Assembly: GCA_944389195.1 (NCBI GenBank)
Contig: CALXLM010000039.1
Coordinates: 1-37,207, forward strand
Length of the DNA: 37,207 bases
Source of the DNA: an uncultured Opitutales bacterium
Lineage (GTDB): Bacteria; Verrucomicrobiota; Verrucomicrobiia; Opitutales; Intestinicryptomonadaceae
Direction of reading: 5' to 3'
The notes below the pieces were generated by a model that worked only from the letters and a program-made list of their open reading frames with translations, had not been told where the DNA came from and made no database searches. Positions within the stretch are counted from its first letter, which is position 1. Every line of letters starts with the position of its first letter. Below are positions 4,309 to 27,895 of this stretch, piece after piece. A program made the position numbers and the translations under genes.

Positions 4309-5493
4309 TTAGGCTCCTTTCGAAATCGCCTCCATTACCCCGCGTATTTCGCAAAGCCCCTTCATGCGCCCTATAAACGAATATCCGGGATTGTCTGTCG
4401 GAGGCTTCGACAAATCGTCGGCCATGTCGCGCCCGTGGTCCGGGCGAAAGACGATTTTTTCGCCGCCGGAAGCCAATATTTTGTCTTGAATTTCCATAAG
4501 GCGCCTTACAACCCTTACCATCGGGACGCGGCCTTCAAGATGCCCCGCCTCGAAAAAGCTTCCGTCGGGCTCCACCTGCGTGCTGCGCAAGTGCGCCACA
4601 CGGATCCTGCCGGCGAGCCTGTCAACCATGGACGCCAAATCGTTGTGCAGCCCCGCGCTGAGCGAACCTGTGCAAAAGCAAACCGTGTTCGACGCCGAAG
4701 GGCAGGCTTCGAACATCTCAAGAAAATCCTCGACTCTCGACGCTATCCTCGGAAGGCCGAGAACCGGGAACGGAGGGTCGTCCGGGTGTATTGCAAGAAT
4801 GGCCCCCGACTCCTCGGCTACGGGAAGCACGTCTTCAAGAAAGAGCTTTAGGTTTTCCTTAAGTTTCTGGGGCGTCACGCCGCCGTAGCGGGCGAGCATT
4901 TTTTTGACGTCCCCGATTTCCAAGCCCATCTTGCACCCGGGAAAGACGTCTATAATCGAGCGCTCAAAAGACTTTTTCCCGTCGCCGTCGAGGGACGAAA
5001 AAAACGCCTCCGCCTTTGCGACGCATTCGGGCGAGCGCTCCTCGGCGGCGCCGCTGCGCTTCAGCACAAATATGTCGAACGCGGCAAACTGCACCGGATC
5101 AAACCGCAGGCAGCGCGAGCCGTCGGGAAGGCGGTAATGCAAATCGGTGCGGATCCAGTCCAAAACCGGCATAAAATTGTATATTATTTTCCTTATGCCG
5201 CATGCGGACAGATTGCGTATGCTTTCCCTGTAGTTTTCTATATGCCTGAGATAGTCGCCGGAGCGCAATTTTATGTCCTCGCTTACCGGAAGCGACTCCA
5301 CGACGTCCCATTCAAGCCCGGCTGCGGCCACTTTGCCCTTGTGCTTTTCTATTTCACCCACGCTCCACAACTCGCCATAGGGAATATGGTGCAGCGAACT
5401 AAAAACGCTCGAGGCCCCGCTCTGCCTTATGAAAGAAAGAGGGACGGGATCGCTGTCGCCGTACCACCTGAAACCTTCCTTTAATTTTTCCAC
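4309..5493 (-). CDS. uxuA: D-mannonate dehydratase UxuA
   Basis: Converts D-mannonate to 2-keto-3-deoxy-D-gluconate plus water (EC 4.2.1.8) in cytosolic hexuronate catabolism. I chose the GTG at 5493-5491 because an AGAAGGAG Shine-Dalgarno lies 7 nt before it. The resulting 394-residue protein begins MEKLKEGFRWYGDSDPVPL, matching the family's N-terminal RWYG-x-x-DPV and length; a longer TTG start at 5520 would run through the Shine-Dalgarno. Recognisable family blocks are LHHIPYGELWS, NFMPVLDWIRTDL, LAIHPDDPP, FCTGSL and FRPDHGR. The last of these includes the metal/substrate histidines and is part of the family's C-terminal signature. It lies 67 bp after the fructuronate-reductase-like SDR, its pathway partner. 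Confidence 0.95.
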   Translation of the reverse strand: MEKLKEGFRWYGDSDPVPLSFIRQSGASSVFSSLHHIPYGELWSVGEIEKHKGKVAAAGLEWDVVESLPVSEDIKLRSGDYLRHIENYRESIRNLSACGIRKIIYNFMPVLDWIRTDLHYRLPDGSRCLRFDPVQFAAFDIFVLKRSGAAEERSPECVAKAEAFFSSLDGDGKKSFERSIIDVFPGCKMGLEIGDVKKMLARYGGVTPQKLKENLKLFLEDVLPVAEESGAILAIHPDDPPFPVLGLPRIASRVEDFLEMFEACPSASNTVCFCTGSLSAGLHNDLASMVDRLAGRIRVAHLRSTQVEPDGSFFEAGHLEGRVPMVRVVRRLMEIQDKILASGGEKIVFRPDHGRDMADDLSKPPTDNPGYSFIGRMKGLCEIRGVMEAISKGA

Positions 5494-5525
5494 AAACAAG
5501 CTCCTTCTACAATTCTGCAATTAAT

Positions 5526-5560: not shown

Positions 5561-6376
5561 CTAAACTCCCGAAAAGCACGAAAACCCACCGTCAATCGGC
5601 AACACTATCCCAGTGACGAATGCGGACGCGTCGGAGCAAAGGTAATGTATGGCCCCGAACACCTCTTCCGGTTTCCCGAAACGGCCGAAGGGCGTAGCCC
5701 GCACAATATCGCGGCCGCGGGCGCTCAATGTCCCGTCGGCCTCCAGCAGCAAAGACCTGTTTTGTTCGCTTATGAAAAATCCGGGAGCCACCGCATTTAC
5801 GCGGACGCCCTCGCCGATTTTCTTCGCAAATTCCACCGCGAGCCATTTTGTGAGGTTGTCAACTGCCGCCTTTGCGTTGGAGTATCCGAGAACCCGCGTG
5901 ACGGCCTGCTGGGCCGTCATCGACGAAAAATTGACAATCGACCCGCGCTTTGTATCCTTAAAAACCTCCCCGAACACGGCTATCGGCAAAAGAGTCCCTT
6001 CGGCGTTGAGGCTGAACACGCGTTCCCAAGCCCCGAAATCGAGATCGAAAAAACTTTTTTCCGGAGCAATGACGGCTCCGGGAAGGTTTCCACCCGCGCC
6101 GTTTACGATGCAGTCGATGCCCCCCCACTTTTCGAGAATTTTGCCGCGCGCGGCCTCCAAAGAGGCCCTGTCGAGGACGTCGGCCTTTACCGACATTCCT
6201 TCGTATCCGTTATCCCCGCAAAATTTCTCGGCCTCTGCGAGTTTACCCTCGCTGCGTCCCAAAAACGCCACCCGCGCTCCGCGCGAGGCCAAATATCTTG
6301 CGGCCGCCCCGGCCAAAACCCCCGTGGCGCCCGTCACCGCTATAACTTTGCCTTTTATATCGAATAAATCTTTCAT
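5561..6376 (-). CDS. uxuB: SDR oxidoreductase, probable D-fructuronate reductase
   Basis: Classical short-chain dehydrogenase/reductase of 271 residues. The cofactor motif is TGATGVLAG at about 15-23, the NAGG loop is present (VNGAGGNLPG), the catalytic Ser sits in VNFSSMTAQ, and YSNAKAAVD holds the Tyr-x-x-x-Lys pair. The C-terminal ends ITGIVLPIDGGF-like (here VTGIVLPIDGGF). SDR-type enzymes of this kind (Bacillus UxuB/YjmF) reduce D-fructuronate to D-mannonate, and the adjacent uxuA supports that role. Its ATG overlaps the stop of the upstream transporter by one base (TAATG), so the two are translationally coupled. The symbol rests on context plus resemblance; gluconate 5-dehydrogenase-like activity is the main alternative. 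Confidence 0.82.
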   Translation of the reverse strand: MKDLFDIKGKVIAVTGATGVLAGAAARYLASRGARVAFLGRSEGKLAEAEKFCGDNGYEGMSVKADVLDRASLEAARGKILEKWGGIDCIVNGAGGNLPGAVIAPEKSFFDLDFGAWERVFSLNAEGTLLPIAVFGEVFKDTKRGSIVNFSSMTAQQAVTRVLGYSNAKAAVDNLTKWLAVEFAKKIGEGVRVNAVAPGFFISEQNRSLLLEADGTLSARGRDIVRATPFGRFGKPEEVFGAIHYLCSDASAFVTGIVLPIDGGFSCFSGV

Positions 6377-8103
6377 TATATTTTATTGGACGACTTTAAA
6401 AACCTGTTCGAAACCGCCACAAGCGCCAGAAAAGCGACAAACACGGCGGGGCCTGCATAGCCCAGCTTGTTCCAAAGAACGTAAAGGCTGGCGACGGAGC
6501 TCGCCAACACCGAACAGCACATTAAAACGTTCCAAAGCGCGCGGCGCCAACCCGACGGAGCCTCGTTCCCCAATACCTTTTTGCTGTTCATTATAACGAG
6601 GAAAGCTCCGTACGCTATCGGCAAAAGCACCATCGCTATCACTCCGGCATGTATGACAATCCACATCTTCGCCCCCTTGAAAAATACAGAAGCTACCGCG
6701 CTGATTGCAATGAGCATGGAACCTCCAAGATGCCATTTTGCCGACATTCCCCTGCCGAGTATTTCGGAAAAGCAAAGGCCGCAAATGAGCATATTCATTA
6801 AAACAGCGTTTATGGCCATGCCGAGAACGCCGAGCCCGAAAACGTACCTTGCGATGTCGTCGCCCAAAAGCGGGGCGAGAGTCTCGGACAAATTCGACGC
6901 GTCGCGCTTGACAAGCATTGCCGCCATTTCGCGCTCCTCTGCGGGAAACGCGTTGCGGACGGCGTCCTTCTGCGCCGCCGGAAGGGCGTCGAATTTTTCC
7001 GCGCCCATTTCATGCTTTATGCGAGAATCGAGCAGCGAAATATATGGCGCTACAAGGTTCGGCGCCGGAACCGCAAGACTGCCGCCAACGGCAGCAGGAA
7101 CGAGTTTCCCCGCCTCTATTTTCGAAGTCGCAAGCCCCTCGGCGGGCTTTGCATGGAACTGGCTTGCGGAAGCCACCACAATACACGACGTCGCCAAAAG
7201 AAACGGTATGAACAACCCGGTCGCCAAATCGAAAATGGCAAGCTCGCGGAAATCCTTATTCCACCCCTTTTTAAGCATGGAGTACGGGAAAAGAAATGTC
7301 ATATTGATGCCAACCGCCATGGCGGCCGCCGATATTACGACGTCCCTTTGCTGCAAGACTATCATGTCGCTCCAAAACTTGCGCCCCACGGGCGAAAGCC
7401 GGGAAATATACTCCATAAAATCGGAACTCGGTTCCGACAGCACCGAAAAGTTCGGTATAAAGCCCGCAAAAACGGCCTGCCAGTCGATTTTGCCGTTCCA
7501 CCAAAGGCTTATTATCACCCCGAAAAAGCATATCACAATCGCCGCGACCGAAAGCTTTATGATTTTTTCAAAAAACTTCACGCCCTTTCCGCCGAAGGCG
7601 TACATGGCGACCATGGCGAAGGCAAAGGCGAACAACAGCACCGTTATGAGAATCTCCGCCGAAAGAGAGGGAGCCTCGGTGGAGGCCGAAAAATTTTGGG
7701 TGATGGCGGCAACTCCAAGCGCGAACTGGGGCATGGCAAACACCAGGCACGCCAGCAGCGAACCAAGCGCCCACCCGTATCCAAGAATGGGGCTTATTTG
7801 GGAGTTTATGCTCTGCATGGGCTTGCTGTTTATGGAAAGGGTGACATACGATATCGCAGCAAGCATCACTATTCCCAAAATCATGGCCGCCGGCTGGAGC
7901 CACATGAATCCGAACCCGCCTAATACCCCGAGGTAAAGCGCCGAAGCGAGCGACCCCCCGCCGAGTGTCGTTGCGCTCTGCATCCAGCCGGGCCCGGAAA
8001 ACTTCGCAAACGTTCCCAATGTGGCCAAAACGCCCTTTTTCTTTGCCGCCAATATTTGTTGGCGCTGTGCCTCAAGCTGTGGATTTTGGAGTTGGTCTGA
8101 CAT
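6376..8103 (-). CDS. NRAMP-fold membrane transporter lacking metal-ligand residues
   Basis: 575-residue polytopic membrane protein with about 11-12 hydrophobic segments. The first helix reads GPG-8 residues-GGGS (residues 37-51), which aligns position for position with the NRAMP GPG-8-DPGN motif. The metal-binding Asp and Asn are replaced by Gly48 and Ser51. The sixth-helix region (AMAVGINMTFLFPYSM, about 261-276) has no MPHN motif. A large soluble insertion (about 314-418) lies between two late helices. The gene sits inside a uronate catabolism operon with a one-base overlap to the next gene, where a sugar-acid importer would be expected. I infer a non-metal or altered substrate, possibly a uronate. 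A divergent divalent-cation carrier remains possible. Confidence 0.8.
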   Translation of the reverse strand: MSDQLQNPQLEAQRQQILAAKKKGVLATLGTFAKFSGPGWMQSATTLGGGSLASALYLGVLGGFGFMWLQPAAMILGIVMLAAISYVTLSINSKPMQSINSQISPILGYGWALGSLLACLVFAMPQFALGVAAITQNFSASTEAPSLSAEILITVLLFAFAFAMVAMYAFGGKGVKFFEKIIKLSVAAIVICFFGVIISLWWNGKIDWQAVFAGFIPNFSVLSEPSSDFMEYISRLSPVGRKFWSDMIVLQQRDVVISAAAMAVGINMTFLFPYSMLKKGWNKDFRELAIFDLATGLFIPFLLATSCIVVASASQFHAKPAEGLATSKIEAGKLVPAAVGGSLAVPAPNLVAPYISLLDSRIKHEMGAEKFDALPAAQKDAVRNAFPAEEREMAAMLVKRDASNLSETLAPLLGDDIARYVFGLGVLGMAINAVLMNMLICGLCFSEILGRGMSAKWHLGGSMLIAISAVASVFFKGAKMWIVIHAGVIAMVLLPIAYGAFLVIMNSKKVLGNEAPSGWRRALWNVLMCCSVLASSVASLYVLWNKLGYAGPAVFVAFLALVAVSNRFLKSSNKI

Positions 8104-8165: not shown

Positions 8166-9251
8166 TTACCGCGCGCGGCCAGATTCCGCCGCTTTTTGGG
8201 CGGCAAGCGCAAGCTCGGCGGCCGCAAACGCATGCGACTGTTTCATCGCCGTTTCGGTTCCGTCCACAACGTCGCGCGCAAAGCGTCCGAAGAACGGGAA
8301 ACCCATGCCGAAACAGTCTATCATTTCCACGCCGTTTTTATCCGCCACATAGAGCGTCTGCGGTGGATTTCCGGGGCGCGAAAAATCAATATACTTGCGT
8401 ATTTCTATGTATCCGCCGGTGCCGAGAATAAAAGTTCTGCCGTCCCCCCATACCGGAAGGCCGTCGGGCGTAAACCAATCGACGCGGCAATATCCGGAAA
8501 CGCCGTTGTCCATAGTCACCGACGCCTCCCCGAAATCCTGAAGCCCGGGGCGGTCGGGATTGTTCATGTTGGCCACGCGCGCATAATTTATAACAGCCGA
8601 GTCGCAACCGGAAAATTCGAGCATCTGCTCAAACTGGTGCGAGCCTATGTCGCACAATATTCCGCCGTACTCTGCGCGGTCGAAGAACCATTCGGGCCGC
8701 GAATCTTTCGAAAGCCTGTGGGGGGCCATTATCAGGATTTGCAGGACGCGCCCGATCCTTCCCCCGCGAACAATCTCCACCGCTTTTTCGGCGGCCTCGT
8801 TGTGGATGCGCTCCGCAAAATACGGCATATATTTCAATCCCGTCTTCGAAACGATTGCGCGGGCCCGCTCGAGCTGCTCAAAAGTGGTCAGCGGCGGCTT
8901 GTCAACAAAGAAGTTTTTGCCAGCATTGAGAACCGCCTCGCCCATGTCGAACCTGCGCGCCGGCACTCCGGCGTTGGCCACAAGCTTTATCGACGGGTCT
9001 TCAAGGATCCTGCCGAGCGAGTCGGCCACCTTCGCGCCGGGAAAGCGCTTCAAAAACTCTTCCACCCTCCGACCGTCTGGATCCCAAACATACTCGCACG
9101 AGGCCCCTGCATTGAGAAGCCCCTGCGTCATTGCGTATATATGCCCGTGGTCGAGGCCGGCGGCGGCGAACTTCAGCTCGCCTTCCCCAACAGACCTCTC
9201 GCCCCCGACGGCGTCTGGAACATAGTCGTATCCGGTTGCGTGTTTCGACAT
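8166..9251 (-). CDS. Gfo/Idh/MocA family oxidoreductase
   Basis: 361-residue cytosolic NAD(P)-dependent dehydrogenase-like protein. The N-terminal Rossmann loop is atypical (AGLDHGHIYAM, 31-41, instead of GxGxxG) and follows a 26-residue leader. The usual EKP is DKPP (117-120). The C-terminal domain has GGILCDIGSHQFEQ (197-210) with the conserved His205. Such enzymes oxidise or epimerise sugars, sugar acids or glycosides; the substrate cannot be read from the sequence. It is the second gene of the uronate operon, 9 nt after another family member, so the two may form a hetero-complex or act in sequence. Confidence 0.87.
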   Translation of the reverse strand: MSKHATGYDYVPDAVGGERSVGEGELKFAAAGLDHGHIYAMTQGLLNAGASCEYVWDPDGRRVEEFLKRFPGAKVADSLGRILEDPSIKLVANAGVPARRFDMGEAVLNAGKNFFVDKPPLTTFEQLERARAIVSKTGLKYMPYFAERIHNEAAEKAVEIVRGGRIGRVLQILIMAPHRLSKDSRPEWFFDRAEYGGILCDIGSHQFEQMLEFSGCDSAVINYARVANMNNPDRPGLQDFGEASVTMDNGVSGYCRVDWFTPDGLPVWGDGRTFILGTGGYIEIRKYIDFSRPGNPPQTLYVADKNGVEMIDCFGMGFPFFGRFARDVVDGTETAMKQSHAFAAAELALAAQKAAESGRAR

Positions 9252-9260
9252 CGCAAGGCC

Positions 9261-10406
9261 CTATTTGAAAGATTTTTTGAAATCGACAATCGCATTCTGC
9301 CTGGGATTGTCCCTGAGCTTCGACGACGCCATCTTCTCCTCGAGAAGCTTTTTATAGAGCGCATGGTCGAGCGGAAAGTTTACGTCGGAATTTGTCCACG
9401 ACGAAAGCAGCATGGCGTTTGCAAGTTCGAGCGAAAGCTCGCCCTGAGAGGCGTCGAAATCGAGCTTCCCCTTTCCGGAAAGCGCCTCGACAAAGTTTTT
9501 TATGACCCCCACATGCTGCTCGCCGCTTCCGAAAAACTCCTCAACGTCCTCCTCCGTTTCGGGCGACCCAAACATGTAAAGGGTGTTTTTTGTGTATTCT
9601 GAAAGCGTCGTCCCCACAAAGCGGACAATCGACAGCTTGCCGCCCTCCGCCACAACGAACGCCTTGTCCCCCGCGATCACGAGCCTATTCGCGCCCGGAT
9701 ACTCGCCCGTAGACGTTGTAAACACCGCGCTTGCCCCGTCCGGCATGTCCATATGGCACACGACCTCGTCCTCTACCTCGATATCGTGGTATTTGCCGTA
9801 CTTGCACCATGCCCGCAGGCTTTTGGGCATTCCGAATATCCACGCCCAAATATCTATGTTGTGTATCGACTGGTTGATAAGCGCGCCGCCGGCCTCACCT
9901 TTCCATGTCCCGCGCCATGTGCTCGAGGCAAAATATATGTCGGGGCGGTACCAGTTCGACATCGTCCACGAAATGCGGTTTATCTTACCGATTTCCCCGG
10001 AATCCACCAGTTCTTTTATGCGCGCGTAAATCGGCGTTGTGCGCTGGTTCAGCATAATGGCGCATGTTTTCCCGCATTTTTTTGCGAAATTCTGAAGCTC
10101 TATCGCGTCGGCGGTGCAAAGGGCTATGGGTTTTTCTACAAGGGTATGGTATCCGGCGGCAAGGCACTTCTTCGCAAAAGGAAGATGCGTAAAAGACGGG
10201 GTGGCCACTATTACGGCGTCGAAGCCTCCGGAGGCAAGCATGCCGTCGAGGTCGCCATAGATTTTAAGCCCGCTATATTTGGGGTCGGTGACGGGGCGCT
10301 GTTCGCAAGCGCAAACTATTTCGGCTTCGGGAATTTTCCCCGCCATGAGATTGTCGACGTGCATAGAACCGATGGGCCCCATTCCTATTACAGCAAATTT
10401 TACCAT
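9261..10406 (-). CDS. Gfo/Idh/MocA family oxidoreductase, first gene of uronate operon
   Basis: 381-residue dehydrogenase of the Gfo/Idh/MocA family. The Rossmann loop is VIGMGPIGSMH (6-16), the nicotinamide-side EKP is at 91-93, and the C-terminal substrate domain contains GGALINQSIHNIDIW (173-187) with His182 and Asp185. No signal peptide is present, so it acts in the cytoplasm. A good ribosome-binding site (AGGGGA, 6-7 nt before ATG) precedes it, and the promoter/operator region lies immediately upstream. As the lead gene of an operon with uxuA and the SDR, it probably oxidises an incoming uronate or uronate glycoside; this is inference. Confidence 0.88.
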   Translation of the reverse strand: MVKFAVIGMGPIGSMHVDNLMAGKIPEAEIVCACEQRPVTDPKYSGLKIYGDLDGMLASGGFDAVIVATPSFTHLPFAKKCLAAGYHTLVEKPIALCTADAIELQNFAKKCGKTCAIMLNQRTTPIYARIKELVDSGEIGKINRISWTMSNWYRPDIYFASSTWRGTWKGEAGGALINQSIHNIDIWAWIFGMPKSLRAWCKYGKYHDIEVEDEVVCHMDMPDGASAVFTTSTGEYPGANRLVIAGDKAFVVAEGGKLSIVRFVGTTLSEYTKNTLYMFGSPETEEDVEEFFGSGEQHVGVIKNFVEALSGKGKLDFDASQGELSLELANAMLLSSWTNSDVNFPLDHALYKKLLEEKMASSKLRDNPRQNAIVDFKKSFK

Positions 10407-10446: not shown

Positions 10447-10464
10447 CCCTCAAACGATTGAGAC
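10440..10464. promoter_or_regulatory. Palindromic operator candidate
   Basis: GTCTCAA (10440-10446) and TTGAGAC (10458-10464) are a perfect inverted repeat with 11 bp between. Nested inside is CTCAA-ACGA-TTGAG (10449-10462), a palindrome with a central CG like LacI-family operators. It lies between the divergent uronate operon and the PEP-CTERM gene, closest to the former. A sugar-responsive repressor is likely but not encoded in this window. Confidence 0.5.
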
Positions 10465-12441: not shown

Positions 12442-13848
12442 ATGGGAAAAGGGGCGTTAAAATTTATAATATCATCATGTTTCTTAACACTATCGGCAAC
12501 GGCAACCCTCATGGGAAAAGTTATAACTTATCCGGCGCCGATTACCGAAAAAGCAAATACATCTTATGCCGTATATGCGGACGGAAAACCAGTTGACATA
12601 TACAAATCGCTGTCGCCGCAATTTGAGGGGGGAGAATATTATTTCGCCATTTTCGATTTTGACGGAAAAGTCGAAATAAAGGTGGAATCGGAAAAGCCTC
12701 TCGACAAAGCCGAAATTTTTCCGGCGAGAACAAACGTAGTTTCACGGTCGGACAATTCAATAACCCTTACCGCCGACAAAGCTCCGTTTTGCGCCGTAAT
12801 ACTGCGGGACGAGCGCAACATGCCGCTGGTGATATTTGGAAACCCGATAGAAACCGACGTTCCCAATCCAAACGCAAAAGATGTGGTGTATTTCGGCCCC
12901 GGCGTCCACGTTCTTCCGGAAATAAGACTTACCGACAACCAGACCCTTTACATTGCGGGCGGAGCCGTTGTCAAATCGAGAGTGTACGCGCAGGGCAAAA
13001 ATATAACCGTCCGCGGCCGCGGAATCATAAGCGGAGACCTGTACGAGCGCAAATCCCTTCCGAAAGGCTATCATTTTATCGATTTTAAAAAGTGCCAAAA
13101 CGCCGTAATCCGCGACATCGTGTTAAAAGACCCGCCGTCATGGACGCTTGTGACTTTCAATACCGACGGCTTTAAAATCGACAACCTTAAAATTTGCGCC
13201 TCAAGAATGTTAAACGACGACGCCATAGACCTATGCAATACGTCAAACGTAGAAATAAAAAACACGTTTGCGCGCGCGCAGGACGACATAATCGCAATCA
13301 AGGGAATGTATGGAGACATGCCGTGCGAGAATATCGAAATAGAAGATTGCATATTTTGGACCGACATCGCCAACATATTCAGAATCGGATATGAATGCAC
13401 TACTCCGAGAATGGCCAACATCAGGGTCAAGAATGTTGAGATACCGTATTACGCCGTAAACTACAGGGGGCCGGAGGAATATTGGGCGAAAGGCATAATT
13501 TGGTTTCAGGCCACGAACAACATGCCCATGCACAACATAGATTTTGAAAATATTACAGTGCGCTCCAACGGAAACGACATGTGCATGCTGCTGGCAAACC
13601 CCAGAAAAGTAACCAGGCATGCTGACACCAATCCCGGACGGGTCTTTGACTGCTCTCTAAAAAATATAAAAGTTTACGGCAAAAAGGGCAAATTTAAGGG
13701 GCTTTTGTATTTTTGCGGATACGATGAAAATTCCCATGTAAAAAATATAAAGCTCGAAAATATTACCTATTTCGGCGAAAAGATAGATTCGTCATACAGG
13801 CATTTCAAGGACGAGAAAAAATTTACGAGCGAAATATCGGTAAAATAA
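12442..13848 (+). CDS. Secreted GH28-like beta-helix glycosidase (polygalacturonase-like)
   Basis: 468 residues with a signal peptide (about 1-24), a small N-terminal beta domain (25-140) and a right-handed beta-helix. N258-D-D260 and Q280-D281-D282 (QDDIIAIKG) reproduce the GH28 NTD and DD motifs with the exact 21/22-residue spacing of fungal polygalacturonases. The third motif, normally GHG, is replaced by FRIGYE (313-318), and no clear RIK motif follows, so the site is altered. Pectin or rhamnogalacturonan fragments are likely substrates. GH49/GH87-type beta-helix enzymes also carry an N-terminal beta domain and are the alternatives. The ribosome-binding site AAGGA lies 7 nt before ATG. 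It would supply galacturonate-type products, though the uxuA branch upstream is the glucuronate/fructuronate one. Confidence 0.75.
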   Translation: MGKGALKFIISSCFLTLSATATLMGKVITYPAPITEKANTSYAVYADGKPVDIYKSLSPQFEGGEYYFAIFDFDGKVEIKVESEKPLDKAEIFPARTNVVSRSDNSITLTADKAPFCAVILRDERNMPLVIFGNPIETDVPNPNAKDVVYFGPGVHVLPEIRLTDNQTLYIAGGAVVKSRVYAQGKNITVRGRGIISGDLYERKSLPKGYHFIDFKKCQNAVIRDIVLKDPPSWTLVTFNTDGFKIDNLKICASRMLNDDAIDLCNTSNVEIKNTFARAQDDIIAIKGMYGDMPCENIEIEDCIFWTDIANIFRIGYECTTPRMANIRVKNVEIPYYAVNYRGPEEYWAKGIIWFQATNNMPMHNIDFENITVRSNGNDMCMLLANPRKVTRHADTNPGRVFDCSLKNIKVYGKKGKFKGLLYFCGYDENSHVKNIKLENITYFGEKIDSSYRHFKDEKKFTSEISVK

Positions 13849-16358: not shown

Positions 16359-16733
16359 AATATAGGAGACCGCCGGATTTGCGGTTGCCGCCGCCAGCCG
16401 GAAACGCAAAACCACTATGTCCGGCTTTACCCAGCGCCAAAGACGAGCCGCAAAAAAATCCGCAATACCCAAGACGCATGCGGACGCGCGGGCCCGCAAC
16501 GACACGGCAAACCGCCGCCTGCCTGCGCTGCGCCGGATTAATTTGCGCACCCGCAAGGCCGCCTTACGCAAATTGGGGCGCAAGTGCCGCGCCGTTTGGT
16601 TTTGCGGCTTCTTTTCCGCGCCCACCTGTTTTTTCGCTTTCTTTTCCGCGGGCGGGCCGCAGCCGGCTAAGACTAATTTTTTCTTGTGAATGCGTGCGGG
16701 AATATAATATCCTGTCAAAAAACACACGCAGAT
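16359..16733. other. GC-rich gene-free stretch before beta-helix gene
   Basis: About 375 bp with no gene I can support. It contains the inverted repeat AATTTGCG (16540-16547) / CGCAAATT (16567-16574) with a 19-nt loop and other G+C-rich short palindromes, similar in texture to the hairpin block at 13861-14200. A TATAAT (16703-16708), 26 bp before the downstream ATG, is a likely -10 element without a good -35. Open frames across it on both strands are rich in Arg/Ala/Pro and look like composition artefacts. Confidence 0.6.
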
Positions 16734-17888
16734 ATGCCGAAAAAAACACCTTTTCTCTTTTTTATCCTGTTTGCGCTCGCATGCTTCGGAAAAGAAAGCC
16801 AACCAAACCGCACAAGCGCGGGTTCACAAAATTCCCCAAATGCTGAATGTGTATTTAACGTGCGCGATTTCGGGGCTCTCGGCGACGGCAAAACTTCGGA
16901 CACAAAAGCCATACAGCGGGCAATAGACGCTGCCGCAAAAGTGAACGGAACGGTTTATTTTCCGGACGGAAACTATCCGTGCGCCTCGCTTAAAGGATAC
17001 CCAAATATAAAATTAAAGGGAGACCCGAAGTGGGGCTATTCAATATCGCATGGGGCGAATCTTATACTAAACGACTACGCCGCCGAATGCCTTATCGACA
17101 TTACCGACGCAAAAAACATTCATTTGTCCGGCTTGAACATGAACGCTAAGCGCGATCCAAATTCGAAGACGCACTGCATAATGTTCGACAAAAAAGACAA
17201 GCCGCGCAATAGGGACACCGACACAATAACGATAGAGGACTGCAAAATCCGCGGATTTTCCGGCCACGGCGTCTATTTAAACAAAGTCTTCGTGCTGATT
17301 ATGCGCCGCTGCATGGTCAATAAAAACCTCGGAGACGGCGTTCGTTCAAACGGGTGCGACTTTTATATAATAGACAACGTGTTCGGCGGAAACGGCGGGA
17401 ACGGTTTCGGCGGGCGCATATCTTCGGGAATGTTTACCCATAACAGGGTAGAATGGAACGAAGCGTACGGCTTGTATCTCGGCAAGGGCGGCAATTATTG
17501 GAGCATAACCGGCAACCAGTTCGACCATAACGGCGGGGCGGGAATACGCATCGACAACGTGTGGTCGATTGCGGTGTCGGGCAACACGTTTCGGAGAAAC
17601 GGGAGAAACTCCGCCGGGCTTTTTGAAGGCGAAAACTCGGCAAACATGGTATTGTCGTCAAACGGCGCGGCAGTCACCGGAAACGCCTTTATGGCCGGGC
17701 ACACCGACGGAAAAAAAGACTATTACACTCCGCGCTACGGAATATACATGTGCGATTCGAAAAACTGCGCTGTGACGTCGAACACGATGAACCACGGCTA
17801 CACAGAATCGGCGGTCAAATATTCCGGGGAAAATCCCGGCTGCATAGTTAAAGACAACCCGTCCTCAAAACACCCGCAAAACTATTAA
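16734..17888 (+). CDS. Secreted right-handed beta-helix protein (pectate-lyase-3-like)
   Basis: 384 residues from the ATG at 16734, chosen because it places a signal peptide (MPKKTPFLFFILFALAC) at the very start; an upstream ATG at 16686 would lie before the -10 element. ALAC could also be a weak lipobox. The segment FNVRDFGALGDGKTSDTKAI (about 41-60) is the classic entry of the Pectate_lyase_3/end-sialidase-like beta-helix fold. It is followed by GTVYFPDGNY and many helix turns (ITIEDCKIRG, FYIIDNVFGGNGG, WSITGNQFDHNGG). No catalytic motif can be assigned. It probably binds or cleaves a polysaccharide outside the cytoplasm. The GDPD-like gene follows after 11 nt, suggesting one transcript. 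Confidence 0.78.
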   Translation: MPKKTPFLFFILFALACFGKESQPNRTSAGSQNSPNAECVFNVRDFGALGDGKTSDTKAIQRAIDAAAKVNGTVYFPDGNYPCASLKGYPNIKLKGDPKWGYSISHGANLILNDYAAECLIDITDAKNIHLSGLNMNAKRDPNSKTHCIMFDKKDKPRNRDTDTITIEDCKIRGFSGHGVYLNKVFVLIMRRCMVNKNLGDGVRSNGCDFYIIDNVFGGNGGNGFGGRISSGMFTHNRVEWNEAYGLYLGKGGNYWSITGNQFDHNGGAGIRIDNVWSIAVSGNTFRRNGRNSAGLFEGENSANMVLSSNGAAVTGNAFMAGHTDGKKDYYTPRYGIYMCDSKNCAVTSNTMNHGYTESAVKYSGENPGCIVKDNPSSKHPQNY

Positions 17889-23313: not shown

Positions 23314-23655
23314 TACAATTCGAGCAAAAAACAAACAAAAAAATGCTTATTTTGGCGCTTTTGGCATAAAAAACGCGCCCTATTCTCAATCGTATGAGGC
23401 AGCCGCGCGCGCAGGCGGCATGCACGGCTATGCCGAAAGCCATTGGCGGACGCAATTTTCGCCGCTTCCCCCCGGATAATTGTTTCCGGCAAAACGCGCG
23501 TTCACAAGCGTGCCATTTTCTTCGGCAATAAATCCGGATAAAATAGCCCAAAGCGCCTTATCAAACGCTTGGCAGCCGCCGCTCCCATTGTTCAAAACCG
23601 AAATATTTGCCCTTTAAACCCCGAGCAATAACCGGACAATAATATTCTTGACTGA

Positions 23656-23677
23656 AAACGCTTCAAAAATAGCGTTT
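23656..23677. promoter_or_regulatory. Inverted repeat, possible operator
   Basis: AAACGCT (23656-23662) and AGCGTTT (23671-23677) are exact complements with 8 bp between, directly after a TTGACT -35-like hexamer and 64 bp before the Tat-exported oxidoreductase. The position suggests repressor binding. Confidence 0.35.
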
Positions 23678-23740
23678 AAAAAAGCAAACGCATTCGCAGA
23701 ATTTAAAGGCAATGCGGCGGGTGTGTTTGTCAAAACGACT

Positions 23741-25078
23741 ATGAAAAGAAGAAAATTTTTATTCAATGTGGGAATGGCCGCCTCCGCGCCGTTTTTCGTA
23801 TCAAACGGGCTGTTCGCTAACGGATCTCCCAACGAAAAAATCAACGTAGGGCTAATCGGCTTGGGCAAGATGATGAACGGCCACATATACGGCTTGCTCG
23901 GAGACAAGTCCGTACGCATTACAAATATATGCGATATAGAAGACGAGCGCATATCCTTCAACAAGGAGCGCATTGAAAATTCGTATAAGAATTCTGGGGA
24001 ATCGGTTGCCGTAAAGACCCACAAAGACTTCAGAAACCTCATAGCCGACAAATCGGTGGACGCCGTTCTCATAGCGACGCCCGATCATTGGCATACAATA
24101 ACGTCCGTATTGGCCGCGCGTGCCGGAAAGCATGTTTATTGCGAAAAGCCCCTTACATTTTCCATTCAGGAGGGGCAGCAGATCATAAATGCGGTAAAGG
24201 CAAACGGCGTCGTTTTCCAGACTGGATCGCAGCAGAGGAGCGAAGCGTCGTTCCGCGAAGCCGTAAGGCTGGCGCGAAGCGGCATGCTCGGGCAAATCAA
24301 GCAGGTATGGTGCAACATAGGGAGAAAGTTTCCCGTAGTTTACAACTGGCCTGCCGAAGACCTTCCCAAAGGTGTCGATTGGGATATGTGGATAGGCCCT
24401 GCGCCGATGCGCTCGTTCTCGAGCCACCTTCTTCCGAAACTTTTGAGCGGCAAAAACAAATACGACCACATCTGGGGCGAGTGGAGATGGCACTACGACT
24501 ACGGAAACGGCATGCAGGCCGACTGGGGCGCGCACCACTTCGACATAGCGCAGTGGGGGCTTAACATGGACGGCAAGGGCCCCAAATACATACACGTTTA
24601 CGAGGACCAAAACAAAAACATAAAAAGCGACACCAGAAACATTTGCTACGAATACGCCGACGGCGTCATGGTTTACTACGGACAGCCTGAAATCCTAAGA
24701 AAAAAAGGTTATCCGGGCGGTTTAGCCATGGTGACGTTTGTCGGAACCGAAGGCGTGGCGACGGCATCGCGCGGAAACATATTCTGGGCCGACAAACCGA
24801 GCCTAAGATCGGGAAAGATAGCTCCGACAAAAACCTCGACATACGTCAGCGAAGGCCACAAAGACAACTTTTTCAACGCCATACGCACCGGCCGCCCGAC
24901 GATATGCCCGGCAGAAGTCGGGGTGTCGAGCTGCAACATGTGCATAATCGGAAACATAGCCTACAAACTTGGGCGCAGGCTCGAGTGGGACTGGAAAAAA
25001 TGCGAATTTGTGGGCGACTCAGAAGCCAACAGGTATCTGTGGCGCCAAAACCGCGGAGAATGGGCAAACGCAATATAA
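23741..25078 (+). CDS. Tat-exported Gfo/Idh/MocA oxidoreductase
   Basis: 445 residues from the ATG at 23741, chosen because it begins with a twin-arginine signal (MKRRKFLFNVGMAASAPFF); upstream in-frame ATG extensions add an unrelated stretch. The Rossmann loop NVGLIGLGKMMNGH is at 35-48, EKP at 135-137, and the substrate domain contains DWGAHHFDIAQWGL. Export after folding implies that a tightly bound NAD(P) cofactor is carried to the periplasm, as in other Tat-dependent family members that act on glycosides. The substrate is unknown. It lies 15 nt before the ThuA/HEAT/F5-8 gene, so the two are probably one operon. No clear Shine-Dalgarno. Confidence 0.9.
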   Translation: MKRRKFLFNVGMAASAPFFVSNGLFANGSPNEKINVGLIGLGKMMNGHIYGLLGDKSVRITNICDIEDERISFNKERIENSYKNSGESVAVKTHKDFRNLIADKSVDAVLIATPDHWHTITSVLAARAGKHVYCEKPLTFSIQEGQQIINAVKANGVVFQTGSQQRSEASFREAVRLARSGMLGQIKQVWCNIGRKFPVVYNWPAEDLPKGVDWDMWIGPAPMRSFSSHLLPKLLSGKNKYDHIWGEWRWHYDYGNGMQADWGAHHFDIAQWGLNMDGKGPKYIHVYEDQNKNIKSDTRNICYEYADGVMVYYGQPEILRKKGYPGGLAMVTFVGTEGVATASRGNIFWADKPSLRSGKIAPTKTSTYVSEGHKDNFFNAIRTGRPTICPAEVGVSSCNMCIIGNIAYKLGRRLEWDWKKCEFVGDSEANRYLWRQNRGEWANAI

Positions 25079-25093
25079 ATTAAAAAATTTCTT

Positions 25094-27895
25094 ATGAAAA
25101 GATTTACGGCAATCATATCGGCTGCGGCGATGGCGGCGGCGCTTTTTGCGCAGTCCGACGACATGAAATTCAATCCGAAACAAATGGAGGCGCTGGCGGC
25201 GGCATGCCCGAAAGCGCCGGCGGTATCCCCGAAAAAAGAGCGCAAAATTCTGATTTTCTCTCGGACTTGCGGATTCAGGCACAAAGGCGGCATACCCGCC
25301 GCAAAAGAAGCTTTCAAAAACATGGGCGAGAAGCTCGGTGTGTGGAAAGTCGAGATATCCGACGACCTCTCGAACCTTGAACCTGAAAAGCTCGCCGGTT
25401 TCGACTGCCTGGTGTTAAACAACACAACCGCTATGTGTTTCGGCGAGCCGCTCCAAAAGATGAGCTCCATGCCGGAATCGGAAAGAGCCAAGATAAGGGC
25501 GCGCTCCGACAGAATCTGCAAGAATATCATTGAATACGTCAAAAACGGCGGGGGCCTTCTGGCGATTCACGCGGCGGTGGACTCATACAACTACGACGCC
25601 TTCCGCAACCGCGAGTTTACCGACATGCTCGGCGGGGAGTTTACAGCCCATCCGTGGTATCTTTCGAACGCGCCCGTCACAATGGTTATCGATGACCCCG
25701 AATCGCCTGTAATAAAGGATATATGGGATATGGACGCCTTCAAGGTGCAGGAGGAGGTTTACATGCTCGGATCCTCGTACGACCGCAAAAAATGCCGCGT
25801 CCTCGTGCGCCTCGATCCGTCGCGCAGCCCGTTTACAACTGCCGCCCGCGAGGCTAACTACAAGCTGCGCCCGGACGGAGACTTGGCAACTGCCTACATA
25901 AAGTCATTCGGAAAGGGAAGAATAGCCTACACGACTTTCGGGCACAGCGACAACAATTACTACAACCCGAAGTTTCAGGAGCTCTATATGAGGCTCGGGC
26001 AATTCTGCTGCGGAGACCTTGCCGCCGACACGTCGTCCATACCGTTCACGGGGAAGTCGGTGGTCGTCCCGATGGATCCGAAGCCGGCTCTTGAAAAGAT
26101 TAGAAAGCTTTCCGATCTGAAGCCCGGCGAGCCGCGCGACGAGGAAATTAACGGTGTTTTGTTTGCGGTTTTCGCCAACAATATGGACGCGAAGTTCCGC
26201 GCCAAGCTTGAAAAGTTCGCCCTGTCGGAGATTGAAGCAGGCAAGGGAACGGCCGACTACCGCGCGTTCTTGGCGGAGCTTATATGGGCCACGGGCGTTT
26301 CGTCTGACGGCAATGCGCAAAGGCTTAAAAAGCTCGCCTCCGACAAGGGCCTCGACGAATCCGTGCGCGGAAAGGTGTCGAACGCCCTCGACCACTTCAA
26401 CAGGGATTTGCCTTTTTACGTTAAGGAAAAGAAATTGTCAGTGGGGGGCAAACTCCCGGCGGACGGCGCGAAACTCGGCAGGCTCATAAACTATCTGGCA
26501 AAAAATCCGGACGTAAAAATTCCGGAATATCTGACGTTTGAAGCCCTCGACGACAGCGGCAAGGCCCGCCTTGCATATGCGCTAATCGAACGCGGGGAAA
26601 GCGCGGCGGAGGCTCTCAAATTCGAGCCGAAATCGGAGGCGTTCGCTGTGGCGTACGCGGCGGCGCTGGCGCGCGACGGCAAAGCCGGAGACTTGAAAAC
26701 TCTTCTAAAGGCGGCGGACTGCATATCCCCGAAAATGCGCCCGGTTGCGGTGGGCTATTTGGTTTCGGCGAAATTCAAGGGGCTGGAAAAAGAAATACTG
26801 AATCTCATACCCGAGGCAAAAACCCCGGCGCAATCGGCGCTGATAGTTGATTCCCTCGCAAAATTCGACTTGTCCAACCTTGTCTCCGAAATTTTCACGG
26901 GATTCGAGGGCATGCCCGACGATATGAAACTTTCAACCCTCAAGACGGCGGAATCGATAGCAAACCTCGGTGCGTTCATGGAAGTCGCAAAGCGGCTCCC
27001 TGAGCTTGACGGGAAGCTCGCAAAGGCGGCTATAAGAACGCTCCTAAAATGCGCCACATCGTCGTACGACAAAAAAATGTTTGCCGCCATACTCGAAATT
27101 TACCCAAAATGCAAAAAGTCCGTAAAGGAAAACCTTGTGCGCTTTGCCGCCTTCGATTCGTCGCCGGAAGCCATAGAATTCGTCAAGAAGGCGTTTAGCG
27201 AAGGTTTCCGCGAAAACGCTGTGAAAGCCTTCGGAGAATGGCGCAACCATGCGGCGTTCGGCCCCCTCATGGCGATTGCGAAATCGGCAAGAGACGAACG
27301 CGCAAGGATTTTCGCCCAACAGTCCATCGCAAAAGTGGCCTCAATTTGCGGTATCGACGCTCCGACTCTGGCGTATATGCTAAGGAACTCGGTGAGGGAC
27401 GAAGAAAGGGCGTCGGTAGTAGAATCGGCCGTCAAATTTCCTTCCCTTGAAAACGCCGACGTCTTCGAAAAAGCCGGCAAGCGCGCCGAAGCCTCAAAAA
27501 TCCGCGACGCAATCAAAAACGCAAAGCCCCTGTACTTGTCGAATTGCAACCAAAACAGCTTCTACTTGGCGCTCGACGGCGACATAAACACCCGCTATAC
27601 GTCGGGTTCGCCCATCAAAGCCGGCGACTGGATCGCTTTCGACTTCGGCTATTCAAAAAGGATTTCCGAAATATCGTTCAACCTCGGCTCATCGAAGAAC
27701 GACTTTCCCGACGAATTTTCGATATCTGCCGGGGCGTCGGAAGCCGCCGCCGTGAAAATTCCGTTTAAAGTGGAACGCGCCGACGGGAAAGTCTCCGTAA
27801 AATTCGACCCCGCCGTCAACGCGAGGTACATAAAAATTACGGCCTTAAAGGGAAAATCGTTCTACTGGTCGGTCCACGAGCTCGAAATAAAGTAA
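25094..27895 (+). CDS. Exported ThuA - HEAT-like - F5/8 type C fusion protein
   Basis: 933 residues with a signal peptide (1-20). Residues about 50-315 form a ThuA-like (class-I glutamine-amidotransferase fold) domain with ILIFSRTCGFRHK, GGGLLAIHAAVDSY, GGEFTAHPW and GRIAYTTFGHSDNN. Residues about 330-800 are helical Ala/Lys-rich repeats of HEAT/ARM type. Residues about 807-933 match an F5/8 type C (discoidin, CBM32-like) domain with ALDGDINTRYTSG, DWIAFDFG and RYIKITALKG. ThuA proteins are linked to disaccharide use, often next to Gfo/Idh proteins, as here. The architecture suggests a large periplasmic or surface protein that binds a glycan with the C-terminal domain and acts on it through the ThuA domain. 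The reaction is unknown. Confidence 0.87.
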   Translation: MKRFTAIISAAAMAAALFAQSDDMKFNPKQMEALAAACPKAPAVSPKKERKILIFSRTCGFRHKGGIPAAKEAFKNMGEKLGVWKVEISDDLSNLEPEKLAGFDCLVLNNTTAMCFGEPLQKMSSMPESERAKIRARSDRICKNIIEYVKNGGGLLAIHAAVDSYNYDAFRNREFTDMLGGEFTAHPWYLSNAPVTMVIDDPESPVIKDIWDMDAFKVQEEVYMLGSSYDRKKCRVLVRLDPSRSPFTTAAREANYKLRPDGDLATAYIKSFGKGRIAYTTFGHSDNNYYNPKFQELYMRLGQFCCGDLAADTSSIPFTGKSVVVPMDPKPALEKIRKLSDLKPGEPRDEEINGVLFAVFANNMDAKFRAKLEKFALSEIEAGKGTADYRAFLAELIWATGVSSDGNAQRLKKLASDKGLDESVRGKVSNALDHFNRDLPFYVKEKKLSVGGKLPADGAKLGRLINYLAKNPDVKIPEYLTFEALDDSGKARLAYALIERGESAAEALKFEPKSEAFAVAYAAALARDGKAGDLKTLLKAADCISPKMRPVAVGYLVSAKFKGLEKEILNLIPEAKTPAQSALIVDSLAKFDLSNLVSEIFTGFEGMPDDMKLSTLKTAESIANLGAFMEVAKRLPELDGKLAKAAIRTLLKCATSSYDKKMFAAILEIYPKCKKSVKENLVRFAAFDSSPEAIEFVKKAFSEGFRENAVKAFGEWRNHAAFGPLMAIAKSARDERARIFAQQSIAKVASICGIDAPTLAYMLRNSVRDEERASVVESAVKFPSLENADVFEKAGKRAEASKIRDAIKNAKPLYLSNCNQNSFYLALDGDINTRYTSGSPIKAGDWIAFDFGYSKRISEISFNLGSSKNDFPDEFSISAGASEAAAVKIPFKVERADGKVSVKFDPAVNARYIKITALKGKSFYWSVHELEIK

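Follow-up and report, generated by a model that had tools for sequence, protein, structure and literature searches.

An NRAMP-fold protein of a verrucomicrobial uronate operon, with a conserved glycine-rich site in place of the metal ligands, is a probable sugar-acid importer

The GGGS protein described here is a 575-residue NRAMP-fold membrane protein in which a conserved glycine-rich site stands where NRAMPs have their metal ligands. Its gene comes from an uncultured Opitutales bacterium, on a contig of 37,207 nucleotides (CALXLM010000039.1, assembly GCA_944389195.1), the whole of which is referred to below as the window. The standard teaching is that NRAMPs import metals, and the GGGS protein is labelled accordingly in databases. 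Since the metal ligands are lost and the gene lies among, and is apparently co-regulated with, genes for glucuronate breakdown, the protein is probably an importer of sugar acids, not of metals. The specific reading that we favour, with moderate confidence, is a LeuT/NRAMP-fold secondary transporter that supplies the Ashwell pathway by importing D-glucuronate or a closely related uronate derivative. The wider proposition, that a whole clade of NRAMP-fold proteins in the Verrucomicrobiota left metals behind for the transport of sugar acids, equipped with a glycine-rich anion site and a periplasmic cap, we consider evenly balanced. The features concerned are collected in Table 1.

Table 1. Features of the GGGS-protein operon in the window
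Feature	Position	Strand	Basis
uxuA, mannonate dehydratase, probable GTG start near 5493	4309..5520	-	NCBIfam PRK03906/TIGR00695 above cut-off
SDR, D-mannonate oxidoreductase (fructuronate reductase-like)	5561..6376	-	NCBIfam PRK08277, 335 bits against cut-off 281; TAATG overlap
NRAMP-related GGGS-clade membrane protein, 575 aa	6376..8103	-	Pfam Nramp PF01566; fold searches
TM7-TM8 loop insertion, residues 314-404, near-invariant R400, probably periplasmic	6892..7164	-	Length comparison
TM6 unwound region, residues 262-270, MAVGINMTF; canonical AxxMPH	7294..7320	-	Multiple alignment, register +/- about 2; conservation
TM5-TM6 loop, residues 215-252, conserved P225, W244, Q252	7348..7461	-	Length comparison
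TM1 site, residues 37-51, GPGWMQSATTLGGGS; canonical GPG-8-DPGN	7951..7995	-	Gap-free profile alignment to 9f6p/9f6n; kept in 49 clade members
GFO/IDH/MocA oxidoreductase 2, kept beside GGGS-protein gene in genus	8166..9251	-	Pfam
GFO/IDH/MocA oxidoreductase 1, first gene of operon	9261..10406	-	Pfam
Palindrome CTCAAACGATTGAG, candidate LacI-family operator, 43 bp before operon	10449..10462	.	One of two exact genome copies; kept in relatives

Fold, central site and enlarged loops of the GGGS protein

The Pfam Nramp model scores 54.2 bits against the GGGS protein (cut-off 29.8) and matches 17 of 19 aligned relatives at E <= 0.01; no NCBIfam model matched the protein, and it is the only PF01566 protein in the window's genome. 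For an AlphaFold2 model built from 14 sequences (pLDDT 66.6, pTM 0.66), the best matches were all NRAMP structures both in Foldseek, where a YcsG model (9a52) ranked first, and in VIA, where the best 16 rows had Z of 30-33 and AdiC came next at 28.9. Structure prediction, proposed as a check in the initial annotation, thus recovered the NRAMP fold but not a readable central site, where the model is weak: TM1 has a pLDDT below 50, which makes it too poor for reading the cavity.

A profile of 19 relatives aligns without gaps to TM1 of human NRAMP1 and NRAMP2 (9f6p/9f6n), with GGGS opposite DPGN, and TM1 is likewise gap-free against canonical Verrucomicrobiota NRAMPs in a multiple alignment, so the original reading of this helix as GPG-8-GGGS holds. 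The placement of TM6 by hhalign was rejected, having set MPHN against the loop that precedes the helix. Hence we relied on a joint multiple alignment of the GGGS protein with canonical proteins and NRAMP-related subgroups of the same order (GAGD/GGGD, GSGE, GTGE and GTGS), in which the TM6 register is uncertain by two residues. TM6 reads AVGINMTFLFPYSML there and, as first reported, contains no MPHN. The TM1 Asp and Asn, the TM6 Met and His, the TM3 Glu and the TM10 Gln are all replaced: TM1 has GxxS where canonical proteins have DxxN; TM6 has M/TxxG with Asn opposite the His, or VxxN in a register moved by two, in place of A/CxxM with His; and L129 occupies the position of the TM3 acid (E134 in DraNramp). 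M268 falls near the TM6 ligand position but off the aligned place, within a register uncertain by about two residues, and the TM1/TM6 core contains no acidic residue in the multiple alignment.

GGGS is kept in all 49 clade members compared, all from Verrucomicrobiota, except for one with GGGT, so the survey of homologues proposed in the initial annotation finds the motif conserved. Residues at least 95% conserved over these 49 are G48-G50, S51, V264-G265-I266-N267-M268-T269, K183, R286, D292 and R400. The joint conservation of GGGS and its TM6 partner indicates a site that is maintained and different, and decay of a metal transporter was rejected on the same ground. A branch with 100% support splits the clade from the canonical DPGN proteins in a maximum-likelihood tree. 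Matches at E <= 1e-30 occur in 34 of 387 sampled genomes of the phylum; one scan of genome contigs placed relatives in Verrucomicrobiota only, and a plasmid search and an IMG/VR scan returned none. Early in TM5, K183 (window 7555-7557) is a fully invariant lysine in the clade. In ApcT a TM5 lysine stands in for sodium, and by analogy K183 is possibly comparable. Two other NRAMP-related proteins (L162, L164), of about 800 residues, nearly twice the usual length, carry GTGS in TM1 and TxxA in TM6.

The loop between TM7 and TM8 has 91 residues in the GGGS protein against 13-17 in all other NRAMP subgroups examined, a net insertion of about 75 residues. The soluble insertion reported after residue 314 is therefore present, but smaller than the 105 residues (314-418) given for it. 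A second enlarged loop, absent from that earlier account, joins TM5 and TM6 (38 residues against 11-29 in other NRAMPs). Given the usual NRAMP topology, both loops are probably periplasmic.

Uronate genes and a shared palindrome

The operon is transcribed from the minus strand in the order GFO/IDH/MocA 1, GFO/IDH/MocA 2, GGGS protein, SDR and uxuA, the last confirming the gene call first made downstream of the SDR. The TAATG overlap previously noted between the GGGS-protein gene and the SDR exists in the window, but among the relatives examined it recurs exactly only in the closest one, the others leaving anything from a few to some tens of bases between the two genes. The GGGS protein is the one multi-TM protein recognised in the operon. 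Nearby are a GH28 gene (12442-13848), a pectate-lyase-like beta-helix gene (16686-17888) and a GH30-family gene (740-2329), the products of which are likely uronate-releasing enzymes.

An absence of recurring linkage to carbohydrate genes had been set beforehand as refuting a move to organic acids, but such linkage was found, with uxaC, SDR, uxuA, KDG kinase and KDPG aldolase genes recurring in five families. A genome-wide search located uxaC within 10 kb of the GGGS-protein gene in 19 of 57 genomes from these families (f1, f11, f29, f59 and f85), where random placement would give about 0.3, and the linkage label changes seven times on the GGGS-protein tree. Across 50 neighbourhoods UxaC occurs in 17, UxuA in 13, an SDR in at least 20 and GFO/IDH in at least 28, the simple gene caller having overlooked some of the last two. 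Also recurrent are genes for PfkB kinase, KDPG aldolase, gluconokinase-like, LarA-like and LacI proteins, and many linked loci lack uxuA. In counts that ignore phylogeny, UxaC is present in 57 of 58 carriers of the GGGS protein and 33 of 63 non-carriers, or, among genomes of at least 2 Mb, in 50 of 51 and 31 of 48. The sole member of the genus without the GGGS protein (G010) also lacks UxaC. About two-thirds of clade members lie away from uxaC and several have GFO, sulfatase and 3-keto-disaccharide hydrolase genes as neighbours; the clade may thus not share one substrate.

In the window's genome, uxaC lies on another contig, next to a KDG-kinase-like PfkB gene and a divergently oriented lacI. 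Comparison of its promoter with that of the window operon yielded a palindrome, CTCAAWCGWTTGAG, with two exact copies in the genome: one at window 10449 and the other (G000:C6:8047) between uxaC and lacI, 13 bp before uxaC. Allowing up to one mismatch gives six sites against one for a reversed control, and none in G010, the genome with neither the GGGS protein nor UxaC. Among relatives in which the two loci are likewise split, four (G008, G004, G009 and G012) have the exact palindrome at both, and a fifth (G003) has an operon site with one mismatch only. Where uxaC and the GGGS-protein gene are joined, one exact site precedes uxaC or the joint operon, with one mismatch in G018. Judged from these shared sites, the GGGS-protein operon is apparently co-regulated with the uxaC locus. 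The LacI-type regulon may be wider, as some relatives have exact copies ahead of other genes too, namely sucCD-like genes in three (L310, L314 and L318) and further GFO genes. A one-mismatch copy, CTCAATCGTATGAG, occurs at window 23385-23398, some 250 bp ahead of a GFO/IDH gene (23648-25078) that is followed by a ThuA-domain gene (25094-27895), and this locus may be a further member.

Other uxaC loci have other transporters. A sodium:solute symporter (SSS) gene precedes the second uxaC of the window's genome, and an extra uxaC in G004 adjoins an MFS protein, whose best NCBIfam match, to a D-galactonate transporter subfamily, is below cut-off; the palindrome is absent from both places. No consistent replacement transporter was seen at uxaC loci in genomes without the GGGS protein. 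With no other multi-TM protein in the operon, and SSS or MFS proteins at other uxaC loci, the simplest reading is that each of these uronate operons brings its own importer, and that the GGGS protein is the importer of this one.

Proposed function and its alternatives

In the proposed mechanism, the broken TM1 helix (GGGS) and TM6 (VGxNMT) would present a carboxylated sugar with backbone amides and small side chains, a model analogous to amino-acid carriers of the same superfamily, which bind carboxylates. Recruitment of the anion could be helped by R400 together with the two enlarged loops, which are probably periplasmic. Imported glucuronate would then pass to UxaC, encoded on the other contig, and on through the SDR, UxuA, KDG kinase and aldolase. 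The initial suggestion of an NRAMP branch moved to organic-acid transport is supported by the conserved non-metal site, the linkage in five families, the operator common with uxaC and the SSS and MFS proteins found elsewhere.

The main rival to uronate import is Mn supply to the Mn-dependent UxuA, the GGGS protein still importing a divalent metal (Mn/Fe) on demand for the UxuA and UxaC of its regulon. UxuA-type dehydratases do require Mn or Fe, the window's genome has no canonical NRAMP, and M268 stands, according to the register chosen, one to three residues from the ligand position. That genome encodes two FeoB and one MgtE, which weighs against a metal role, but no ZnuA/MntC-type binding protein was found there and hence no other Mn route was recognised; NRAMP-related YcsG, moreover, is reported to raise cell Mn (PMC10448178). 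Against this, uxuA is missing from many of the linked loci, the TM1/TM6 core has no acidic residue, and the TM10 Gln and TM3 Glu positions are lost as well. The lack of an acidic ligand carries weight because the TM1 Asp is described as conserved throughout the SLC11 proteins, and because even EleNRMT, which transports Mg, is severely impaired when this Asp is mutated (PMC8806188). We regard metal import as quite unlikely.

It is unlikely that the cargo is another sugar derivative, such as a uronide in oxidised or unsaturated form or a 3-keto sugar produced by the GFO/IDH enzymes, instead of free hexuronate. Two GFO/IDH genes do lie upstream of the GGGS-protein gene in most of the genus, and around distant clade members there are clustered genes for GFO proteins, 3-keto-disaccharide hydrolase and sugar-isomerase-like TIM-barrel proteins; the recurring partners in the window's family, however, are those of the plain glucuronate route (UxaC, SDR, UxuA, KDG-kinase-like PfkB and KDPG aldolase), and one locus (L294) has uxaC followed by two GFO/IDH-type genes resembling those of the window in the absence of the GGGS protein. 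That the protein is a sensor or degenerate, and no transporter at all, is highly improbable: every known ligand is lost, and the NRAMP-like domain of plant EIN2, for which we know of no demonstrated transport, offers an example, but the new site is strongly conserved across the phylum, Pfam finds no added signalling domain, and no second multi-TM protein was seen in the operon.

Relation to known systems and significance

The GGGS protein shares with canonical SLC11/NRAMP proteins (MntH and DMT1; DxxN, A/CxxM) the Pfam family, the fold, the GPG start of TM1 and a gap-free TM1, but lacks all tested metal ligands and the TM3 acid, and has the two enlarged loops. The NRMT Mg transporters (EleNRMT, DxxG-TxxA) have the same fold (Z 32.5) and have also lost the TM1 Asn and TM6 Met; the TM1 Asp needed in EleNRMT is nevertheless Gly here, and GxxS stands in place of the DxxG of the DxxG-TxxA/T pattern. 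Among hexuronate transporters (ExuT of the MFS, SSS, TRAP), the place beside uxaC and the inferred role are common ground, co-regulation with uronate catabolism being judged from the shared sites, whereas the MFS and TRAP folds are unrelated and SSS shares only the LeuT core.

NRAMP-related proteins without DPGN and MPH motifs, including 'G-motif' groups, have been described and are mostly uncharacterised (PMC12873925). As an NRAMP relative with no metal motif and a glycine-rich TM1, which we take the name to denote, the GGGS protein fits that description. Corynebacterium glutamicum needs PxpT, an NRAMP-family homologue of YcsG from the published 'G-motif 3', in order to use 5-oxoproline (PMC13274462), so an organic-acid role in the family has precedent; YcsG/MntG itself has been argued to be a Mn importer (PMC10448178). 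Like the GGGS protein, PxpT/YcsG is NRAMP-related and belongs to an organic-acid operon, but the pathway differs and the structural likeness is a fold match to 9a52 only. A figure legend on the alginate loci of Alteromonas 76-1 names an 'Nramp' gene (PMC6431674), and in the titles, abstracts and passages of literature searched we found no report that ties an NRAMP to uronate, hexuronate or glucuronate in this way. New here are the uronate linkage across the clade, the operator shared with uxaC and the two enlarged loops.

A uronate locus, a shared operator and a conserved non-metal site together furnish a concrete substrate hypothesis for one uncharacterised NRAMP-related group, and a warning against inferring metal transport from PF01566. 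Taken with PxpT, they suggest that organic anions are a recurrent substrate of the NRAMP fold. If true, import by the GGGS protein would fill the missing uptake step in the use of pectin and glucuronoxylan by gut Verrucomicrobiota.
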